From Candidatus Omnitrophota bacterium (GTDB taxonomy: Bacteria > Omnitrophota > Gorgyraeia > Duberdicusellales > 4484-171): a DNA stretch of 59,325 nucleotides. Each line of letters begins with the position of its first letter. Within the stretch, counting starts at the first letter, position 1. Location: contig JAMXCX010000003.1 of NCBI GenBank assembly GCA_024542985.1, positions 1 through 59,325 on the forward strand. The letters run 5' to 3'. Below, in pieces: positions 5,283 to 25,854 of this stretch. Below the pieces are notes generated by a model. That model had not been told where the DNA came from and made no database searches. It saw nothing but the letters and a program-made list of their open reading frames with translations. The position numbers were made by a program, and so were the translations under genes.

Positions 5283-5756
5283 ATGGCTAAGCAATCAAAT
5301 CTTTCTTCGTTTGCCGCAGAGCTGGCGCAGGCCATACCTTATTTGGCTCGTTTCTCACGGGCGATGCTGGGGCAGCGTTCAGATCCTCTCAGCGCCGGTA
5401 AAATTACCCTTCCTCAATACATTGCCCTTAATGTACTCGGCGTTAAAGAGTCAATTAAGATGAAGGATATTGCCAGAGCAATGCGGATAAGCCTTCCGGC
5501 AGTTACCGGCTTAGTTAATAGGCTTGTGCGGATGAAGATGGTTAAAAGAAGCTATGATGCAAAAGACCGCCGGGTAATTTATGTAGTGCTTACTTCCTTA
5601 GGAAAAAAGACCGTTGAAAGTGTAACTTTGGGCCGCCGGAGGGTGATTGAGGAGCTATTCAGCGATTTGAGTGACAAAGAGCGTGAAATCTATATAACCA
5701 TTATCCGTAAGGTAAAAAAGATTGTTTATGAAAAAAGCGAAAAGGCTAAACAATAA
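5283..5756 (+). CDS. MarR-family transcriptional regulator
   Basis: A 157-residue winged-helix regulator. The helix-turn-helix and wing are visible at about residues 60-105: MKDIARAMRISLPAVTGLVN, then KRSYDAKDRRVIYVVLTSLG with the typical DxRxxxxxLT wing. MarR proteins bind DNA as dimers and usually repress efflux or stress genes until a small ligand binds. It is first in an operon with a TolC-like channel and an RND pump, so it probably represses this operon. The ATG follows an excellent AGGAGG site, and the 3' end overlaps the start of the next gene by 29 bp. Confidence 0.9.
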   Translation: MAKQSNLSSFAAELAQAIPYLARFSRAMLGQRSDPLSAGKITLPQYIALNVLGVKESIKMKDIARAMRISLPAVTGLVNRLVRMKMVKRSYDAKDRRVIYVVLTSLGKKTVESVTLGRRRVIEELFSDLSDKEREIYITIIRKVKKIVYEKSEKAKQ

Positions 5757-7302
5757 AGGGGTATCCATTTTGCTTTTATCAGCTGCCCTTACCGTAGCTA
5801 TGAATGCAAAAAGTGTTCTGTTTGCATACCAGTTTTCTCATCAAAAGCAAAAAATTCAAACAGGAAATAAGGGGAAAGCTTCCCGGCCTGATAAGGGGGG
5901 AGCCGTTGCTCCTTCTTCCCTAGAGCTATCTCTTAAGGATGTAACCAATATTGCCTTAGATAATTCTTTGGATATTCAAATCGCAAAGCTTGACGTTTAC
6001 ATAGAGAGATTATCTTTAAAAAAAGAGAATTCAATATTTGATACTTTTTTAAGTGCCAGCATAACTTATAACCGGGATAAGAGGATGCAGGCAAGCACTG
6101 TTTTCGGCACAGAGACAAAAGAGCATGAGTTTTCTTTCGGCTTAGAAAAGAAGACATCCACAGGAACAACAGTTTCTCTGGACACAATCGGTACTAAAAA
6201 GAGGACCAATAGTATTTTCAGCACTTTGAATCCTTACAACGAAGCCCGGATAGAGCTTTCCATAACCCAGGAATTAGGAAAGAATTTTTTTGGCTTGGCT
6301 GACCGTTCTAAGATTAAAGTTACAAAAATCGATATTGAAAATTCAGAGTTTACTTCTTTAGATGACATAGAGGATATTTTATCCAGAGTGCAGAAAGCAT
6401 ACTGGCGCCTCGTATTAGAAGAAGAGCAGCTAGGAATAAGGAAAGATATGCTTTTTGAGGCTGAAAAATTATACAAAATATATAAAGATAAATTTTCCCT
6501 GGGGTTGGTTGAGGAAAGTGAGTTACTGGCGGTTGAAGCTGTGGTATATACCAGAAAGGCGAGTGTTTCCATAGCCGGGCTTAAGCGCCAGACTGCTAAA
6601 AATAACCTTCTTTTTTTGATAAATAAAGGAAATTTTAAGCAGGAAATTAAGCCAAAGGAAGAATTGTCTTCAACAAGTCAGAAGGTTGATTTAGCCCAGG
6701 CTCTTATCAAAGCTATAGCCTCCCGGCGCGACTACCGGAGGGCTATTAATGAAATTAAAAAGAATAATATCGATTTAGTTGTGAAGGAAAATGCTTTATG
6801 GCCCCAAATAGATTTAGAAGCTTCTTTAAACCGTAATAATCTTAATTTAAACCGCCTCCAAGCCTGGGAAGATGCTACCCGTCAGAGCAATGATGAGGTT
6901 TTTGTAGGTTTAACTATTAAGATACCTTTTGAGAATACTGAGGCTAAAGCAGAGCTAAAGGAGGCAGAATTTAATAAGAGAAAAGTATTGCTTGAGCTAA
7001 AGCGTGTAGAGAGGCTTATTTTGAAAGAACTTAATAATAAGGTCAGCCGGGTAAATGTAATACAAAATCAAGTCCAGCTCTATGAAGGAACAGTAAAAAT
7101 ACACGAAAAAAAACTTAAACATCAGATAAAACGCCTAAAGTTCGGGCGTTCGGATTCAGATACGCTCCTTCGCTATGAAGAAGATTTATTAAACACTCGC
7201 TTAGAACTGGTGGATTATTTATTTCAATATAAAGTGAGTTTTATTGAGTTGGAGCTAGCGCAAAACACCTTGCTGGATAAATATTGGAAGGATTCACTAT
7301 AG
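5728..7302 (+). CDS. TolC-family outer-membrane efflux channel
   Basis: A 525-residue outer-membrane factor. An N-terminal signal sequence (hydrophobic core SILLLSAALTVAMNA) is followed by the two outer-membrane-efflux repeats. The first starts near ELSLKDVTNIALDNSLDIQ, the second near VDLAQALIKAIASRRDYRRA. Long coiled-coil helices are rich in Lys, Glu and Leu. It forms the trimeric exit duct for the RND pump encoded 9 bp downstream. I place the start at the ATG at 5728, which overlaps the end of the MarR gene. A TTG two codons upstream is also in frame but less likely. Confidence 0.88.
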   Translation: MKKAKRLNNKGVSILLLSAALTVAMNAKSVLFAYQFSHQKQKIQTGNKGKASRPDKGGAVAPSSLELSLKDVTNIALDNSLDIQIAKLDVYIERLSLKKENSIFDTFLSASITYNRDKRMQASTVFGTETKEHEFSFGLEKKTSTGTTVSLDTIGTKKRTNSIFSTLNPYNEARIELSITQELGKNFFGLADRSKIKVTKIDIENSEFTSLDDIEDILSRVQKAYWRLVLEEEQLGIRKDMLFEAEKLYKIYKDKFSLGLVEESELLAVEAVVYTRKASVSIAGLKRQTAKNNLLFLINKGNFKQEIKPKEELSSTSQKVDLAQALIKAIASRRDYRRAINEIKKNNIDLVVKENALWPQIDLEASLNRNNLNLNRLQAWEDATRQSNDEVFVGLTIKIPFENTEAKAELKEAEFNKRKVLLELKRVERLILKELNNKVSRVNVIQNQVQLYEGTVKIHEKKLKHQIKRLKFGRSDSDTLLRYEEDLLNTRLELVDYLFQYKVSFIELELAQNTLLDKYWKDSL

Positions 7303-7311
7303 AGATAAGTT

Positions 7312-10300
7312 ATGAAAATTGCTGAATATTCGGTAAAACATTCGCTTTTAGTAAACCTTATTTCGGTTTTTATCCTTATAGCCGGTTTTTATACTCTTTT
7401 TATTTTCAAAATTCCCCGTGAGGCCTTTCCTGAAGTTTCACGGGATATAGTAATCATACAGACTGCATATCCGGGAGCTCCGCCCCAGGATTTGGAGAAG
7501 TTAGTTACTATTCCTATTGAGAAAGAAATTAAAGGAATTGGAGGGGTTGAGGAAACTCAGTCTACTTCCCAAGAAAATATCTCGACTATAAGGGTGGATA
7601 TAAGCCAGGATGTAAAAGATAAACGTAAAGTAGTCGATGATATCCGGCGGGCAGTGGAGAGGGTGCAGGATTTACCCAGAGAAGTTGAAAAGCCGATTGT
7701 AACTGAAATTACTTCGGGCATGATACCGGTAATTCAGGTAGCTTTAAGCGGTGATTTAGATGAAGCTGTGCTGCAGGAATATGCAGAAAATTTGGAAGAC
7801 ATACTCGAAGATATCCCCGGAGTATCTAGTATTTCCCGGGGAGGTTGGAGGAATAAGGAGGTGTGGGTTGAGGTAGACCCCGGTAAAATGCGTGATGTGC
7901 ATGTGAGCCTGGAAGAAATAATGCTGGCTTTAAAGAAAAGAAATACTAGTATTCCCGGAGGAAAAATCCGCGCTCAAAAAGAATTCAGTATTCGTACTAC
8001 CGGTGAATTTTACACGACTGATGAAATCGAAAAAGTAGTTATTAGGGCTAATGAAGCCGGAAATTGGTTGCGGATAAAAGACGTAGCCAGGGTTAAATTT
8101 GGCTTTGAGGATGAAGACGTTATCAATAAAAGTTATGGTACGCGTTCAATTAATCTTACTGTTATTAAACGGGAAACAGCAGATGCAATTAAAATTGTCG
8201 ATCAGGTTAAAAAGGATACTAAAGATTTTCTTGAGTATGCCGATTCTAAGTTAAAAGTTTCCTACATAAGAGATATGTCCTTTTATATTAAACGCCGGCT
8301 GGGAGTGCTGAAGAATAACGGAATTATCGGCTTGTTTTTGGTTTGCTGTGTTTTGATGCTCTTTTTGAATTTCCGTATAGCCTTGTTAACAGCTTTAGGC
8401 CTTCCTATTGCTTTTTCTGCTACCATAACAGTGATGGGTTTTGTAGGATTAAGTATAAACCTTATTACTATGTTCGGGTTAATTATAGTTCTGGGCATGC
8501 TGGTGGATGATGGAATTATTGTAGCTGAGAATTGCGCCCGTTACTTGGAAGAAGGCCTTAATCCACGCCAGGCGGCTATCGTGGGTACACAGGAAGTGGC
8601 TAGGCCGGTTACCGCAACTATTATCACTACCATTGCTGCTTTTTTCCCACTTCTATTCATGGAAGGAATGTTGGGTAAATTCATCTGGGGCATACCCTTG
8701 GTAGTTGGTATTGCTTTGAGCGCATCTTTATTTGAGGCTTTGGTTATTTTACCTTCACATTTCGCTGATTTTGTTAGGGTAAGTAAGAAGTTTAGATCAA
8801 GGAAGGAGTTGCCTTGGTTTAAGAAACTGATTAGTTTTTATACTCGTATTCTTAACAAGGCTCTCAAGCGGCGTTATTGGGTATTATCCGGTTTGCTTAT
8901 CGCATTTTTTTTAACTATTCTTCTGGCAAAAAGCATGCCGTTTATTCTTTTTGGTTCCCAAGAAGGTATCGAGCAGTTTTATATTCGCGCCGAAGTTCCC
9001 TTAGGCACAAATATTTATACCACCAATAAATTGGTACGCCGGATAGAAGAGAAAGTTGAACAATTACCTAAAAACCAAGTAGCGACTTACACTACTCAGG
9101 TTGGCTTAACCAGCGGAAGGAGGATGTATGACCCTTACAGCAAGTCCGGGAGTCATGTCGCTCAAGTTGTGGTGTATCTTAATCCTTATTCTGAACGTAA
9201 GCGAAGGGTAAGTGAAATTATTGAAGATTTGAGGGAGAAAACTAAAGATATCCAAGGTTTTGATAAGATTTACTTTGAAAAACAACGTGCCGGGCCGCCG
9301 GTAGGAAAAGCCGTAGCTGTTAAAGTGCGGGGTGAGGATTTTTCTGTACTCCAGGAGATTGCCGGTAATATAGAGAATTTTTTAAAAGACAAGAAAGGAG
9401 TTTCTGATATTGCCTCTGATTATGAAATAGGCCGGGGAGAAATCCGGGTAGTTATTAATCAGGACGAGACCGCTCGTGCCTTTCTCTCAGTAGGTGAGAT
9501 TGCGGCTTCCATACGTAATGCTTTTCGGGGAGGAATAGCTACTACGATTAAGCCGGTTAAAGCTGAAGAAGAAATTGATGTTATAGTGCGTTTTCCTGAA
9601 AAATACCGCAATAAGAGAGAGACTTTTGATGAAATTCTAATTCCTAATAAGTTCGGACACCTCATTTCTTTAAAAAAGGTAGCCCATCTAGAGGATAAGT
9701 TATCAGTAGCCCGTATCCGGCATCTAAACGGTAAAAGGGTGATTACTATTAGAGCTGGTGTGGATAATAAGAATATGACTTCTTCAAAGGTAAATGAGCT
9801 CTTAAGCCAAGAATTTAAGGGTATATCAAGAAAATATCCCGGATACCGCATAGAGTATGGAGGAGAGCAGGAGGAAAACATAAAATCTAGGCGCAGCTTT
9901 ATAAGGGCTTTCGGTTTCGCTTTCTTTTTGATTTTTCTTATTTTGGCAGCTAATTTTAATTCTTTAGTTCAGCCTCTGGTTGTAATGATGGCAATTCCGT
10001 TTGGATTGATTGGCGTTATCTGGGCTTTTTTCTTCCATGGGGCTGCGATAAGCTTTTTTATGATGATGGGTGTTATTGGGCTTAGCGGTATTGTGGTTAA
10101 TGATTCTATTGTTTTAGTTGATTTTATTAATAATCTACGCCGCAAGGGAGTTGCCAGAAGGGATTCAATTGTTCAGGCCGGTCAACTACGCTTGAGGCCG
10201 GTTATACTTACTACCATTACCACAGCTCTCGGACTTACGCCTACTGCTTACGGCATTTGGGGAGGTGACCCCTTCTTAAAACCCATGGCACTTACTATTG

Positions 10301-10440
10301 TTTGGGGTATTATCTGCGCTACTGTGCTTACTTTGATCGCTCTTCCCTGTATCTATGCCATTATTGATGATATTGCACTTAAAATTTCCGGCCACGCTAT
10401 TGTGATAAGTAATAACAATAAAGAGAATAATAAGACTTAA
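7312..10440 (+). CDS. RND-family efflux transporter permease (HAE-like)
   Basis: The 1042-residue protein has the size and duplicated plan of AcrB-type pumps: TM1 near residues 10-32, a large periplasmic loop, TM2-6 around 335-480, a second transmembrane helix near 525, a second large loop, and TM8-12 from about 865. The TM4 acidic pair of the proton relay is present in GMLVDDGIIVAEN. In the second half the usual TM10 lysine region reads GIVVNDSIVLVDF, so the AcrB lysine is replaced, as in several HAE subfamilies. It should export small molecules through the upstream TolC protein. No periplasmic adaptor (membrane-fusion protein) gene is found in this operon, which is unusual for a tripartite pump. 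Confidence 0.92.
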   Translation: MKIAEYSVKHSLLVNLISVFILIAGFYTLFIFKIPREAFPEVSRDIVIIQTAYPGAPPQDLEKLVTIPIEKEIKGIGGVEETQSTSQENISTIRVDISQDVKDKRKVVDDIRRAVERVQDLPREVEKPIVTEITSGMIPVIQVALSGDLDEAVLQEYAENLEDILEDIPGVSSISRGGWRNKEVWVEVDPGKMRDVHVSLEEIMLALKKRNTSIPGGKIRAQKEFSIRTTGEFYTTDEIEKVVIRANEAGNWLRIKDVARVKFGFEDEDVINKSYGTRSINLTVIKRETADAIKIVDQVKKDTKDFLEYADSKLKVSYIRDMSFYIKRRLGVLKNNGIIGLFLVCCVLMLFLNFRIALLTALGLPIAFSATITVMGFVGLSINLITMFGLIIVLGMLVDDGIIVAENCARYLEEGLNPRQAAIVGTQEVARPVTATIITTIAAFFPLLFMEGMLGKFIWGIPLVVGIALSASLFEALVILPSHFADFVRVSKKFRSRKELPWFKKLISFYTRILNKALKRRYWVLSGLLIAFFLTILLAKSMPFILFGSQEGIEQFYIRAEVPLGTNIYTTNKLVRRIEEKVEQLPKNQVATYTTQVGLTSGRRMYDPYSKSGSHVAQVVVYLNPYSERKRRVSEIIEDLREKTKDIQGFDKIYFEKQRAGPPVGKAVAVKVRGEDFSVLQEIAGNIENFLKDKKGVSDIASDYEIGRGEIRVVINQDETARAFLSVGEIAASIRNAFRGGIATTIKPVKAEEEIDVIVRFPEKYRNKRETFDEILIPNKFGHLISLKKVAHLEDKLSVARIRHLNGKRVITIRAGVDNKNMTSSKVNELLSQEFKGISRKYPGYRIEYGGEQEENIKSRRSFIRAFGFAFFLIFLILAANFNSLVQPLVVMMAIPFGLIGVIWAFFFHGAAISFFMMMGVIGLSGIVVNDSIVLVDFINNLRRKGVARRDSIVQAGQLRLRPVILTTITTALGLTPTAYGIWGGDPFLKPMALTIVWGIICATVLTLIALPCIYAIIDDIALKISGHAIVISNNNKENNKT

Positions 10441-17504: not shown

Positions 17505-17554
17505 GTTTTTCTAAAAGCGCTTATAACTGTTGCTATTTTTGAAGTATAAGATAC

Positions 17555-17765
17555 TGTCAAAATTTATATGAAAATTACAAATTCCAAGCATCAAATAACA
17601 AATAATTACCAAATTCCAAGCATCAAATAACAAATAATTACCAAATTCCAATTTATAAATACCCAAAACATTAGTATCTATTTTAATGTTTTGAATTTTG
17701 GTCATTGAATATTGGAATTTATTTGGGATTTGGAAATTGATATTTGGGATTTACGTAAACTTTTG
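17555..17765 (+). repeat. Dispersed imperfect-palindrome repeat (MITE-like), copy 1
   Basis: This 211-bp block is nearly identical to 24422-24600. It starts TGTCAAAATTTATATG and ends AAACTTTTG. Its left and right halves are imperfect inverted repeats, closing on a perfect core CAAAACATTA...TAATGTTTTG. This copy has one extra 32-bp unit (AAATTCCAAGCATCAAATAA and on), tandemly duplicated. It carries no gene; the ORFs predicted across it are spurious. Identity stops sharply at both ends, as expected for a mobile miniature element, yet both copies lie in the same orientation inside presumed leaders. Confidence 0.85.
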
Positions 17766-17798
17766 ATAATACGAAGTATAACAAGGGGAGGCAATAAT

Positions 17799-23068: not shown

Positions 23069-23608
23069 ATGCAAAAAAATATTCACGGGATAATAGTTGA
23101 GTGTTTAGGAGGTAATATAGCCGCCCAAAGCGATGCTGATGCAGTAGTAAATGCCGCCAATGCCCAGCTGCGCATTGGGGGAGGTGTCGCCGGAGCAATA
23201 CATAGAGCTGCGGGTCCGGGCCTTGAGATTGAATGCCGTCCGCTTGCGCCGATTAAACCCGGAGAGGCAGTTATAACCAGCGGACAGGGTTTGCCAAACG
23301 CCTATTGCATACATTGCCTGGGGCCGATTTATGGCCGGGATAAGCCCGAAACTACACTATTGTCAAGCTGTTACCGCAAGGCCTTAGCTTTAGCAGAAAA
23401 ACATAAAATTAAAATTATTGCTTTTCCGGCGATTTCAGCCGGTGCCTTTGGCTATCCTCTAGAGGAGGCGGCAAAAGTTGCCTTGAAAACAGTCATTGAG
23501 GAAGCTTCCCAATTGCAACAGGTAAAAAAAATTCGCTTTGTCCTGTATGGTCTGAAAAGTCTAGAAATACATCAAAAGATTTTATCCGATCTGACTTCGA
23601 ATAGCTAA
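23069..23608 (+). CDS. Macro-domain protein (ADP-ribose derivative hydrolase)
   Basis: A 179-residue macro domain. Signature elements: ADAVVNAANAQLRIGGGVAG (about 22-41) with the ADP-ribose-binding Asn and Gly loop, then AIHRAAGPGL, and IIAFPAISAGAFGYPLEEAA, which binds the phosphates. This is the TTHA0132/YmdB-like group, predicted to hydrolyse O-acetyl-ADP-ribose or remove ADP-ribose from proteins. The upstream Nudix protein could degrade released ADP-ribose. It is the last gene before the 1-kb repeat region. Confidence 0.9.
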   Translation: MQKNIHGIIVECLGGNIAAQSDADAVVNAANAQLRIGGGVAGAIHRAAGPGLEIECRPLAPIKPGEAVITSGQGLPNAYCIHCLGPIYGRDKPETTLLSSCYRKALALAEKHKIKIIAFPAISAGAFGYPLEEAAKVALKTVIEEASQLQQVKKIRFVLYGLKSLEIHQKILSDLTSNS

Positions 23609-23634
23609 AATACCACAATTCCTTTTTTTAGTAA

Positions 23635-23746
23635 ACCCCGTTAGAGAACTTCGTCCTTTTACCCCGTTAGATAGTAAACATCTAACGGGGTCAGCTTCAA
23701 TCGGTAATGACCACCGATTAAAATCGGTGGCTTTCTCTAACGGGGT
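23635..23746. repeat. Nested inverted-repeat element (cruciform/multiloop), IS200-end-like
   Basis: Outer arms ACCCCGTTAGAGA (23635-23647) and TCTCTAACGGGGT (23734-23746) are perfect 13-bp complements. Inside lie two further perfect hairpins: ACCCCGTTAGAT with ATCTAACGGGGT (23661-23672 and 23680-23691), and CCACCGAT with ATCGGTGG (23711-23718 and 23723-23730). The whole would fold as a three-way junction. Hairpins such as CCACCGAT..ATCGGTGG resemble ends of IS200/IS605-type elements, so this may be a non-autonomous relic. No transposase is present. Confidence 0.75.
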
Positions 23747-23800
23747 AAAAGCAGGCTTTAACCAGACCGTATTAGAGCCTAAATTCATTTCTAATACATT

Positions 23801-24224
23801 TGACTAGTCATTTTGAAATAAAAGTTTCTAATGAAGACGATAAATAAAGGATATTTTCTATATATTTGACTAGTCATTTTGCAAGTATGAATAGCAGCAT
23901 TTAAGGGGGAGGAGCAAAGAAAGAAGATGAGCAAGGCTGTTTTTCTTGGCATTTCAACTCTAAGGAAGAGCAACCAAATTCCAAATATACATTTGACTAG
24001 TCATTTTGAAATATATTTTTGCCCAATGCTTTGTTTAGAGGAGCGAGGACATATATATTTGACTAGGCAAATTGAAATATATATATAGGGAGCATAGACT
24101 TATTTTTGTGTATTTATAAGGAGAGTAGTCTCTTATGAGATAGTGTATTACTAGCATTTGACTAGTCAAATGCTAGTATAATTTCAGAATTAGTATAGTT
24201 ACTGTCTATATATCTGACTAGTCA
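23801..24224. repeat. Cluster of six TGACTAGTCA palindromes
   Basis: The 10-bp palindrome TGACTAGTCA occurs at 23801, 23867, 23994, 24159 and 24215, with a one-base variant TGACTAGGCA at 24060. Start-to-start distances are 66, 127, 66, 99 and 56 bp. The first four copies share flanks close to ATATTTGACTAGTCATTTTG followed by AAATA. Copy five is embedded in a 30-bp perfect palindrome. The sequence between copies is A/T-rich and unrelated. The block has no credible ORF. It may be a cluster of operator sites, a protein-loading site or a degenerate repeat family. Confidence 0.85.
24149..24178. repeat. 30-bp perfect palindrome
   Basis: TACTAGCATTTGACT is followed directly by its exact reverse complement AGTCAAATGCTAGTA, with no spacer. 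The centre is the fifth TGACTAGTCA of the cluster. A spacerless perfect palindrome of this length suits a dimeric DNA-binding protein or a recombination/resolution site. Confidence 0.85.
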
Positions 24225-24339
24225 TATAGCAAATAGATTAGTTTTCTGAGGCTCCTCAAAATAGGGCTTAAGGGTCGCATATCTCTTTTGGGGCTTTAGT
24301 GAAATTATTGGATTGACCTAAAAGGATAAATATCCGCAC

Positions 24340-24368
24340 TCGACTTAAGGCGGACTTTTTGTTATAAT
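24340..24368 (+). promoter_or_regulatory. Predicted promoter of the NYN-nth operon
   Basis: TCGACT (24340-24345), a 17-bp spacer and a perfect TATAAT (24363-24368). The nearest downstream gene starts at 24658, so repeat copy 2 would lie in the leader. Confidence 0.55.
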
Positions 24369-24421
24369 AGTTTTAATTTTCTGTTGGGCATGTTTTAAAA
24401 CTTTGTATATTCAAAAGGTAA

Positions 24422-24600
24422 TGTCAAAATTTATATGAAAATTACAAATTCCAAGCATCAAAGAACAAATAATTACCAAATTCCAATTTATAAATACCCA
24501 AAACATTAGTATCTATTTTAATGTTTTGAATTTTGGTCATTGAATATTGGAATTTATTTGGGATTTGGAAATTGATATTTGGGATTTAAGTAAACTTTTG
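24422..24600 (+). repeat. Dispersed imperfect-palindrome repeat (MITE-like), copy 2
   Basis: This 179-bp copy matches 17555-17765 almost base for base, apart from the 32-bp unit duplicated in copy 1. It begins TGTCAAAATTTATATG and ends AAACTTTTG. The two halves are imperfect inverted repeats around CAAAACATTA...TAATGTTTTG. As in copy 1, it sits about 50 bp after a predicted -10 box and ends a few tens of bases before a start codon. Confidence 0.85.
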
Positions 24601-24657
24601 GCAATAGGATTCAAAAAATAAGTAGATTAGTCATGGACAATTAACATAGGAGGATTA

Positions 24658-25215: not shown

Positions 25216-25854
25216 ATGCTTAAAGAAAAAGCCTTAAAGGTTGTAAGCCGGCTTAAAAAAGAATATCCAGCTACAAGAACCTTCCTCAATTTTAAAAATC
25301 CTCTCCAGTTATTAGTGGCGACTATTCTTTCTGCCCAGTGCACTGACCGACAGGTCAATTTAGTGACTTCTCAGCTTTTTAGGAAGTATCGAAGCCTTAA
25401 AGATTATGCGAGAGCAGATTTAAATAAATTAAGGCGAGAAGTCCATTCTACGGGCCTCTTCCGCAATAAAGCTAGAAACATTTTAATGGCTGCTAAGAAA
25501 ATATTGGATGATTTTAACGGAAAAGTTCCTGATTCTCTGGATAAATTAGTGCAGCTCCCGGGGGTGGCTAGAAAGACAGCCAACATTGTTCTTTATAATG
25601 CTTTTGGAAAAGTTGAAGGCATAGCAGTGGATACTCATGTCAGCCGCTTAAGCCAGAGACTTGAGCTTAGCGATAATCAGAACCGGGATAAGATAGAAAA
25701 AGATTTGATGTGTCTTTTACCTCAGAAAGAATGGGGCTGTCTAAATCATCTTTTAGTGCAGCATGGTAGAGAGATTTGCCGTTCGAGAAAGCCAAAATGC
25801 TTACAGTGTGTGCTTAAGAGTATTTGCCCCGGGAAGAAAGCATTTTTCTTTTAG
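25216..25854 (+). CDS. nth: Endonuclease III
   Basis: A 212-residue DNA glycosylase/AP lyase that removes oxidised pyrimidines. Helix-hairpin-helix LPGVARKTANIVL contains the catalytic Lys120, and VDTHVSRLSQRL the catalytic Asp139. The C-terminal [4Fe-4S] cluster is complete: Cys188, Cys195, Cys198 and Cys204, with the canonical 6-2-5 spacing. Length is normal. It is co-transcribed with the NYN gene and overlaps ispH tail-to-tail by 41 bp. Confidence 0.95.
   Translation: MLKEKALKVVSRLKKEYPATRTFLNFKNPLQLLVATILSAQCTDRQVNLVTSQLFRKYRSLKDYARADLNKLRREVHSTGLFRNKARNILMAAKKILDDFNGKVPDSLDKLVQLPGVARKTANIVLYNAFGKVEGIAVDTHVSRLSQRLELSDNQNRDKIEKDLMCLLPQKEWGCLNHLLVQHGREICRSRKPKCLQCVLKSICPGKKAFFF

Follow-up and report, generated by a model that had tools for sequence, protein, structure and literature searches.

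RacA of Bacillus subtilis is a MerR-like winged-helix protein, and the consensus of its ram sites is a TGAC...GTCA-type inverted repeat. The ram sites are GC-rich and have a longer centre. BldC of Streptomyces (6ama, 6amk) assembles on direct repeats in head-to-tail fashion and is not known to target a palindrome array. The ram sites serve as centromere-like elements, which are spread over the chromosome and are densest near the origin (PMC6593407). The ram half-sites fit the array analysed here. However, this array forms a single small cluster rich in A/T, and scans of the assembly with HTH_17 and the A2 profile detected no winged-helix coiled-coil protein of the RacA kind.

The operators of GntR regulators (Sphingomonas L055 and L060, Streptomyces L041, and Streptacidiphilus L065) consist of two TTGACTAGTCAA sites at the start of a GntR/UTRA gene. 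They adjoin the regulator's own gene, whereas six sites with no regulator gene nearby were observed here. The arrays that accompany a winged-helix coiled-coil protein in other bacteria, hereafter the comparator protein, share the same 10-bp palindrome TGACTAGTCA in several copies within a few hundred bases, at one or a few places per genome. These arrays usually overlap or flank the gene of the presumed binder, but no such gene was found next to the present array or elsewhere in the assembly, and the copy spacing and flanks differ as well. The BldC fold is among the closest to the comparator winged helix.

The window, meaning the whole stretch of DNA that was analysed (59,325 nucleotides, contig C49), belongs to a MAG of 1.57 Mb in 106 contigs that is about 88% complete. 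The six copies of the TGACTAGTCA type reported in the first-pass annotation were confirmed. Those at 23801, 23867, 23994, 24159, and 24215 are exact, and the copy at 24060 is TGACTAGGCA, with a single mismatch. The features of the locus are as follows.

23069 to 23608, plus strand: gene for a macro-domain protein, upstream of the array; it directly adjoins the NYN gene in some relatives
23629 to 23755, no strand assigned: dispersed hairpin repeat ACCCCGTTAGA...TCTAACGGGGT, left of the array, with dozens of partial copies genome-wide
23794 to 23820, plus strand: repeat unit 1, ATACATT TGACTAGTCA TTTTGAAATA
23860 to 23886, plus strand: repeat unit 2, ATATATT TGACTAGTCA TTTTGCAAGT
23987 to 24013, plus strand: repeat unit 3, ATACATT TGACTAGTCA TTTTGAAATA
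24053 to 24079, plus strand: repeat unit 4, with one core mismatch, ATATATT TGACTAGGCA AATTGAAATA
24149 to 24178, plus strand: repeat unit 5, the centre of a perfect 30-bp palindrome TACTAGCATTTGACTAGTCAAATGCTAGTA (inverted-repeat search)
24208 to 24234, plus strand: repeat unit 6, ATATATC TGACTAGTCA TATAGCAAAT
24340 to 24368, plus strand: predicted sigma-70 promoter TCGACT-17-TATAAT with an extended -10 (TGT), a consensus match only
24415 to 24610, no strand assigned: dispersed AAATTCCAA/TTGGAATTT repeat, right of the array, with 96-97% copies at window positions 17604-17774 (17548-17774 in a wider delimitation) and on contig C19
24658 to 25206, plus strand: gene for an NYN-domain protein, downstream of the array (PF01936, E 2.6e-20)
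25216 to 25854, plus strand: endonuclease III-like (HhH-GPD) gene (E 4.7e-22)

The array was described as lying in gene-free DNA upstream of NYN and endonuclease III genes, and both statements held. No sizeable gene occurs in 23609-24657, and the two downstream genes have Pfam matches to PF01936 and HhH-GPD. The spacer measures 1,049 bp and runs from the macro-domain gene to the NYN gene, which the endonuclease III-like gene follows. In two relatives (L020 and L032), the macro and NYN genes are 12-20 bp apart versus about 1 kb here, so the spacer was probably enlarged in this lineage. The predicted promoter starts 116 bp after the last core and is a candidate for driving the NYN-nth genes. It is kept as a candidate because promoter-like sites in the region are no commoner than in shuffles. 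The GC skew was checked for signs of a replication origin or terminus; it stays positive throughout the window with no sign change, and both were rejected for this stretch.

The copies were aligned to define the repeat unit. All six are on the plus strand, and the element is ATAYATTTGACTAGTCA, often followed by TTTTGAAATA. The core is invariant in five of the six copies, and the flanking positions from -7 to -1 and from about +10 to +20 are conserved too. Conservation thus extends from about -7 to +20, as ATAYATT TGACTAGTCA and then TTTTGAAATA or a relative of it. The 10-bp palindrome described at first is the core; the full unit has a direction, spans about 27 bp, and includes conserved flanks. 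Outside the unit, the spacers do not clearly resemble one another: in pairwise comparison, nine of ten z-scores were below 1, and the pair 1-5 reached 2.4.

The proposed period of 64-66 bp with one unit missing was not borne out. No degenerate seventh copy is present in the 127-bp gap, where the best match was 6/10, and the sites lie on different helix faces (offsets 0, 3, 4, 7, 1, and 4.5 of 10.5), without helical phasing. What recurs is a pair of sites: units 1-2 and units 3-4 are each 66 bp apart, the pairs are offset by 193 bp, and their middles are unrelated. A CRISPR array was also rejected, as its repeats and spacers must have near-constant lengths and the spacings here are 66, 127, 66, 99, and 56.

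All five exact TGACTAGTCA copies of the assembly sit in the cluster. Within the window, seven matches with up to one mismatch were counted against 0.66 expected, and none of 100 shuffles reached seven. Likewise, no 10-bp palindrome exceeded two copies per 430 bp in 100 dinucleotide shuffles of the window, compared to five here. ATAYATTTGACTAGTCA with up to one mismatch occurs five times genome-wide, always within the array. TTGACTAGTCAA with up to two mismatches occurs 48 times genome-wide against 60 for the reversed control, which indicates that the motif is not scattered. The array DNA has no second copy or other match in the genome, and only the flanking elements are dispersed. A dispersed repeat or MITE was therefore rejected, and the earlier option of a remnant repeat array is weakened by the same result, although the flanks are indeed dispersed repeats. 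The palindrome cluster is real and locus-specific. Identical palindromes at one spot of a 1.6 Mb genome offer a clean target for finding a DNA-binding protein in an uncultured lineage.

The distribution of the motif was then compared among relatives, none of which came from the same genus. Among 384 genomes of the phylum, a pair of exact copies 40-70 bases apart is confined to this one; none of the other 383 has a comparable pair. In 96 relatives, seven exact TGACTAGTCA copies were found in total, at most one per genome, corresponding to a background of about 0.05 per Mb. Each lies in or overlaps a reading frame, and these single copies (L006-L012) were taken as chance and rejected as sites. 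Conservation next to the same genes had been suggested as a check. Among 24 other family members with an NYN gene, none has a nearby site at up to one mismatch in the fetched stretches of up to 1.5 kb on either side, a comparison across other genera that weighs little for a recent site. No other convincing recurring palindrome was seen in the stretches fetched at the relatives' NYN genes.

The array is best read as a set of locus-specific predicted sites of one dimeric DNA-binding protein, perhaps acting on the NYN-endonuclease III promoter, a reading in which we place somewhat better than even confidence. Of the options first offered, an operator array for a dimeric regulator fares best as a predicted binding array. 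A role in chromosome organisation, another of those options, is conceivable; the GC skew keeps one sign across the window. We infer that a protein binds these sites, that it dimerises, that binding is cooperative, and that this promoter is the target. A binding array is preferred because five of the six cores are invariant and the spacers are unrelated, the sites are at a single locus, and a predicted promoter lies downstream. The binder would be a dimer, probably of the helix-turn-helix kind; each subunit would contact one TGAC half-site in TGACTAGTCA, and the direction of each copy would come from its A/T-rich flank. Several dimers along about 430 bp could form one nucleoprotein patch, and this patch would control the promoter downstream. 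The clustering, which is absent from shuffles, and the restriction of the motif to one locus speak for a binding array. The differing helix faces speak against it, as does the 116 bp between the last site and the predicted -35 box, which is unusual in a simple operator. The array is also missing from all sampled relatives, the promoter is a consensus match, and the assembly yielded no candidate binder.

The search for that binder covered the assembly and its family. The comparator profile gave nothing better than 2.7e-5 in 37 family genomes including this one, where the best match (E 0.0012, 19.9 bits) has a different recognition helix, SILTAKKYI. Seven HTH_17 proteins scored above the family cut-off in this genome. 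The recognition helix of the comparator is absent from all of them, and none shows an evident long coiled coil, with one of the seven cut by a contig end. As the assembly is about 88% complete, a missing cognate gene is possible but not likely. Separately, the window carries a MarR-family gene followed by efflux-pump-like genes at 5283-10440, including a 1042-aa RND-like protein (assigned by eye). The MarR gene at 5283 was rejected as the binder, its upstream region having no similar site.

The same palindrome was sought in other bacteria by scanning 84,980 species for two exact TGACTAGTCA copies 44-74 bases apart, which returned 27 loci. At 17 of the 27, the array is accompanied by an ORF that carries an S..T.RR-type helix and encodes a winged helix plus a coiled coil; the helix pattern was found in 0/157 control ORFs. 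In these 17 loci, 74 of 75 exact copies are within 800 bp of the winged-helix coiled-coil gene, some inside it, a count that is partly circular because the loci were selected by motif pairs. Two checks are less circular. In Bacteriovorax G402, whose array sits between dnaA and dnaN, and in Bdellovibrionales G403, the gene lies outside the fetched array locus and matches the winged-helix domain profile at E 3.9e-10 and 3.2e-14, respectively. In addition, a protein search led to a homologue (L181) in another genome of the Peregrinibacteria class, and its 3.5-kb locus contains three exact copies, whereas the loci of a close homologue (L182) and of six diverged homologues have no TGACTAGTCA copies. 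Overall, the profile matched five of six array genomes tested (about E 4e-10 to 3e-24).

The pairing was noted at L039-L064 (17 loci), L156-L158, L162, L163, and L181, in Hymenobacter/Spirosoma plasmids, Patescibacteria, and Bdellovibrionota. In a Bacteriovorax MAG (L059:690-768), the interval from dnaA to dnaN (both assigned by eye) contains two TGACTAGTCA copies amid DnaA-box-like TTATCCACA, and a gene with an S..T.RR-like helix is on the same contig about 20 kb from the array. GntR genes were found at four array loci (L041, L055, L060, and L065), and some other loci have no evident binder; thus, the binder cannot be told from the palindrome alone. The occurrence of arrays at genes for DNA-binding proteins (17/27 winged-helix and four GntR) nevertheless indicates that TGACTAGTCA is usable as a dimer site.

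The comparator protein has an HTH_17/excisionase-like domain in several members (Pfam, NCBIfam). In its predicted model, whose quality is modest (mean pLDDT 70, eight sequences), a disordered linker separates a winged HTH at residues 5-47 from a helix at 100-146, and a short helix follows at 152-161. The nearest solved folds to the winged helix were P2 Cox, BldC, Xis, and RacA, all at E >0.01. In our reading, the aromatic and basic residues of the C-termini form a putative membrane-anchoring tail. A full-text literature search for TGACTAGTCA returned 14 papers, none of them titled on a bacterial binding site, and the winged-helix coiled-coil protein paired with these arrays is apparently undescribed. 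The broader lead is that palindrome clusters occur with one type of winged-helix coiled-coil protein across several phyla, on plasmids and chromosomes, and the pairing may represent a simple anchoring or partition system. We propose that the protein of this system, with its winged helix, coiled coil, and short amphipathic/aromatic C-terminal tail, binds small TGACTAGTCA clusters on both kinds of replicon.

A centromere-like or anchoring site, at which such a protein would hold the locus at the membrane or some other structure, was accordingly weighed for the present array. In genomes of Gracilibacteria, Peregrinibacteria, and Bdellovibrionota, clusters of the same palindrome are limited to one or a few places, and they go with a protein whose predicted structure combines a winged HTH with a long helix and a short helix at the C-terminus; array genomes encode such an HTH in five of six cases, at E 4e-10 or better. 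The present genome has no such protein, its best match having another recognition helix, and the window shows no switch in GC skew. This reading is doubtful here, and since no cognate protein was found, the array is not assigned to the anchoring system. Still less probable is that the array represents an orphan site belonging to a widespread anchoring system, so far undescribed, whose cognate gene is unassembled or on an accessory replicon. When control of the NYN-endonuclease III promoter is set against an anchoring or centromere-like role, control is the most likely, in what is nearly an even choice. Neutral local expansion, in which template switching or slippage multiplied a short quasi-palindrome inside the spacer to no function, is unlikely but deserves a little more weight than anchoring. 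The growth of the spacer from the 12-20 bp of two relatives, the two dispersed repeats it has accumulated, and the presence of the array in this genome alone all fit such an expansion, as does the duplication-like recurrence of the 66-bp pair at a 193-bp offset. Duplication would have copied the spacers too, yet identical cores stand here between unrelated spacers.

A remnant of a mobile element or integrated plasmid, with the palindromes as iterons, a plasmid centromere, or IS607/Tn7-type subterminal transposase sites, appears improbable. On Hymenobacter/Spirosoma plasmids, the winged-helix coiled-coil gene and the palindrome clusters are near a replication initiator gene, and several short repeated motifs occur in the ends of IS607-family elements (PMC6188088). 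Near the array, however, no transposase, integrase, or Rep gene was recognised among the partly annotated genes, phage and plasmid records gave only short or weak DNA matches to 23770-24260, and the genome has no second array copy. IS607-type ends had been considered because the IS607 transposase binds repeated subterminal motifs, and they were rejected with neither a transposase nor a second end seen. A plasmid iteron origin was likewise set aside, as a Pfam scan of the five nearest genes showed no replication initiator. Among viral contigs, the motif pair was met in a single contig as an unrelated 11-bp tandem repeat, and TTTGACTAGTCATTTTG gave six lone single copies; none was retained. A function at the RNA level, in which the array transcript forms hairpins or encodes a small RNA, is very improbable. 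Compared with 60 shuffles, the minus strand gives the better fold (z about -4.5, versus -2.6 for the plus strand), but mutual pairing is inherent to repeated palindromes, whichever strand is folded. Taken singly, all units but unit 5 fold weakly or moderately, and no Rfam family scored above threshold.

Elsewhere in the assembly, short A/T-rich inverted repeats, TTTACTAGTCAAA and TAGTAAAATTTTACTA, were noted at L109 (G000:C46:3380-3480) directly 5' of an acyl-CoA ligase-like gene (assigned by eye). They are perhaps the operator of another regulator.
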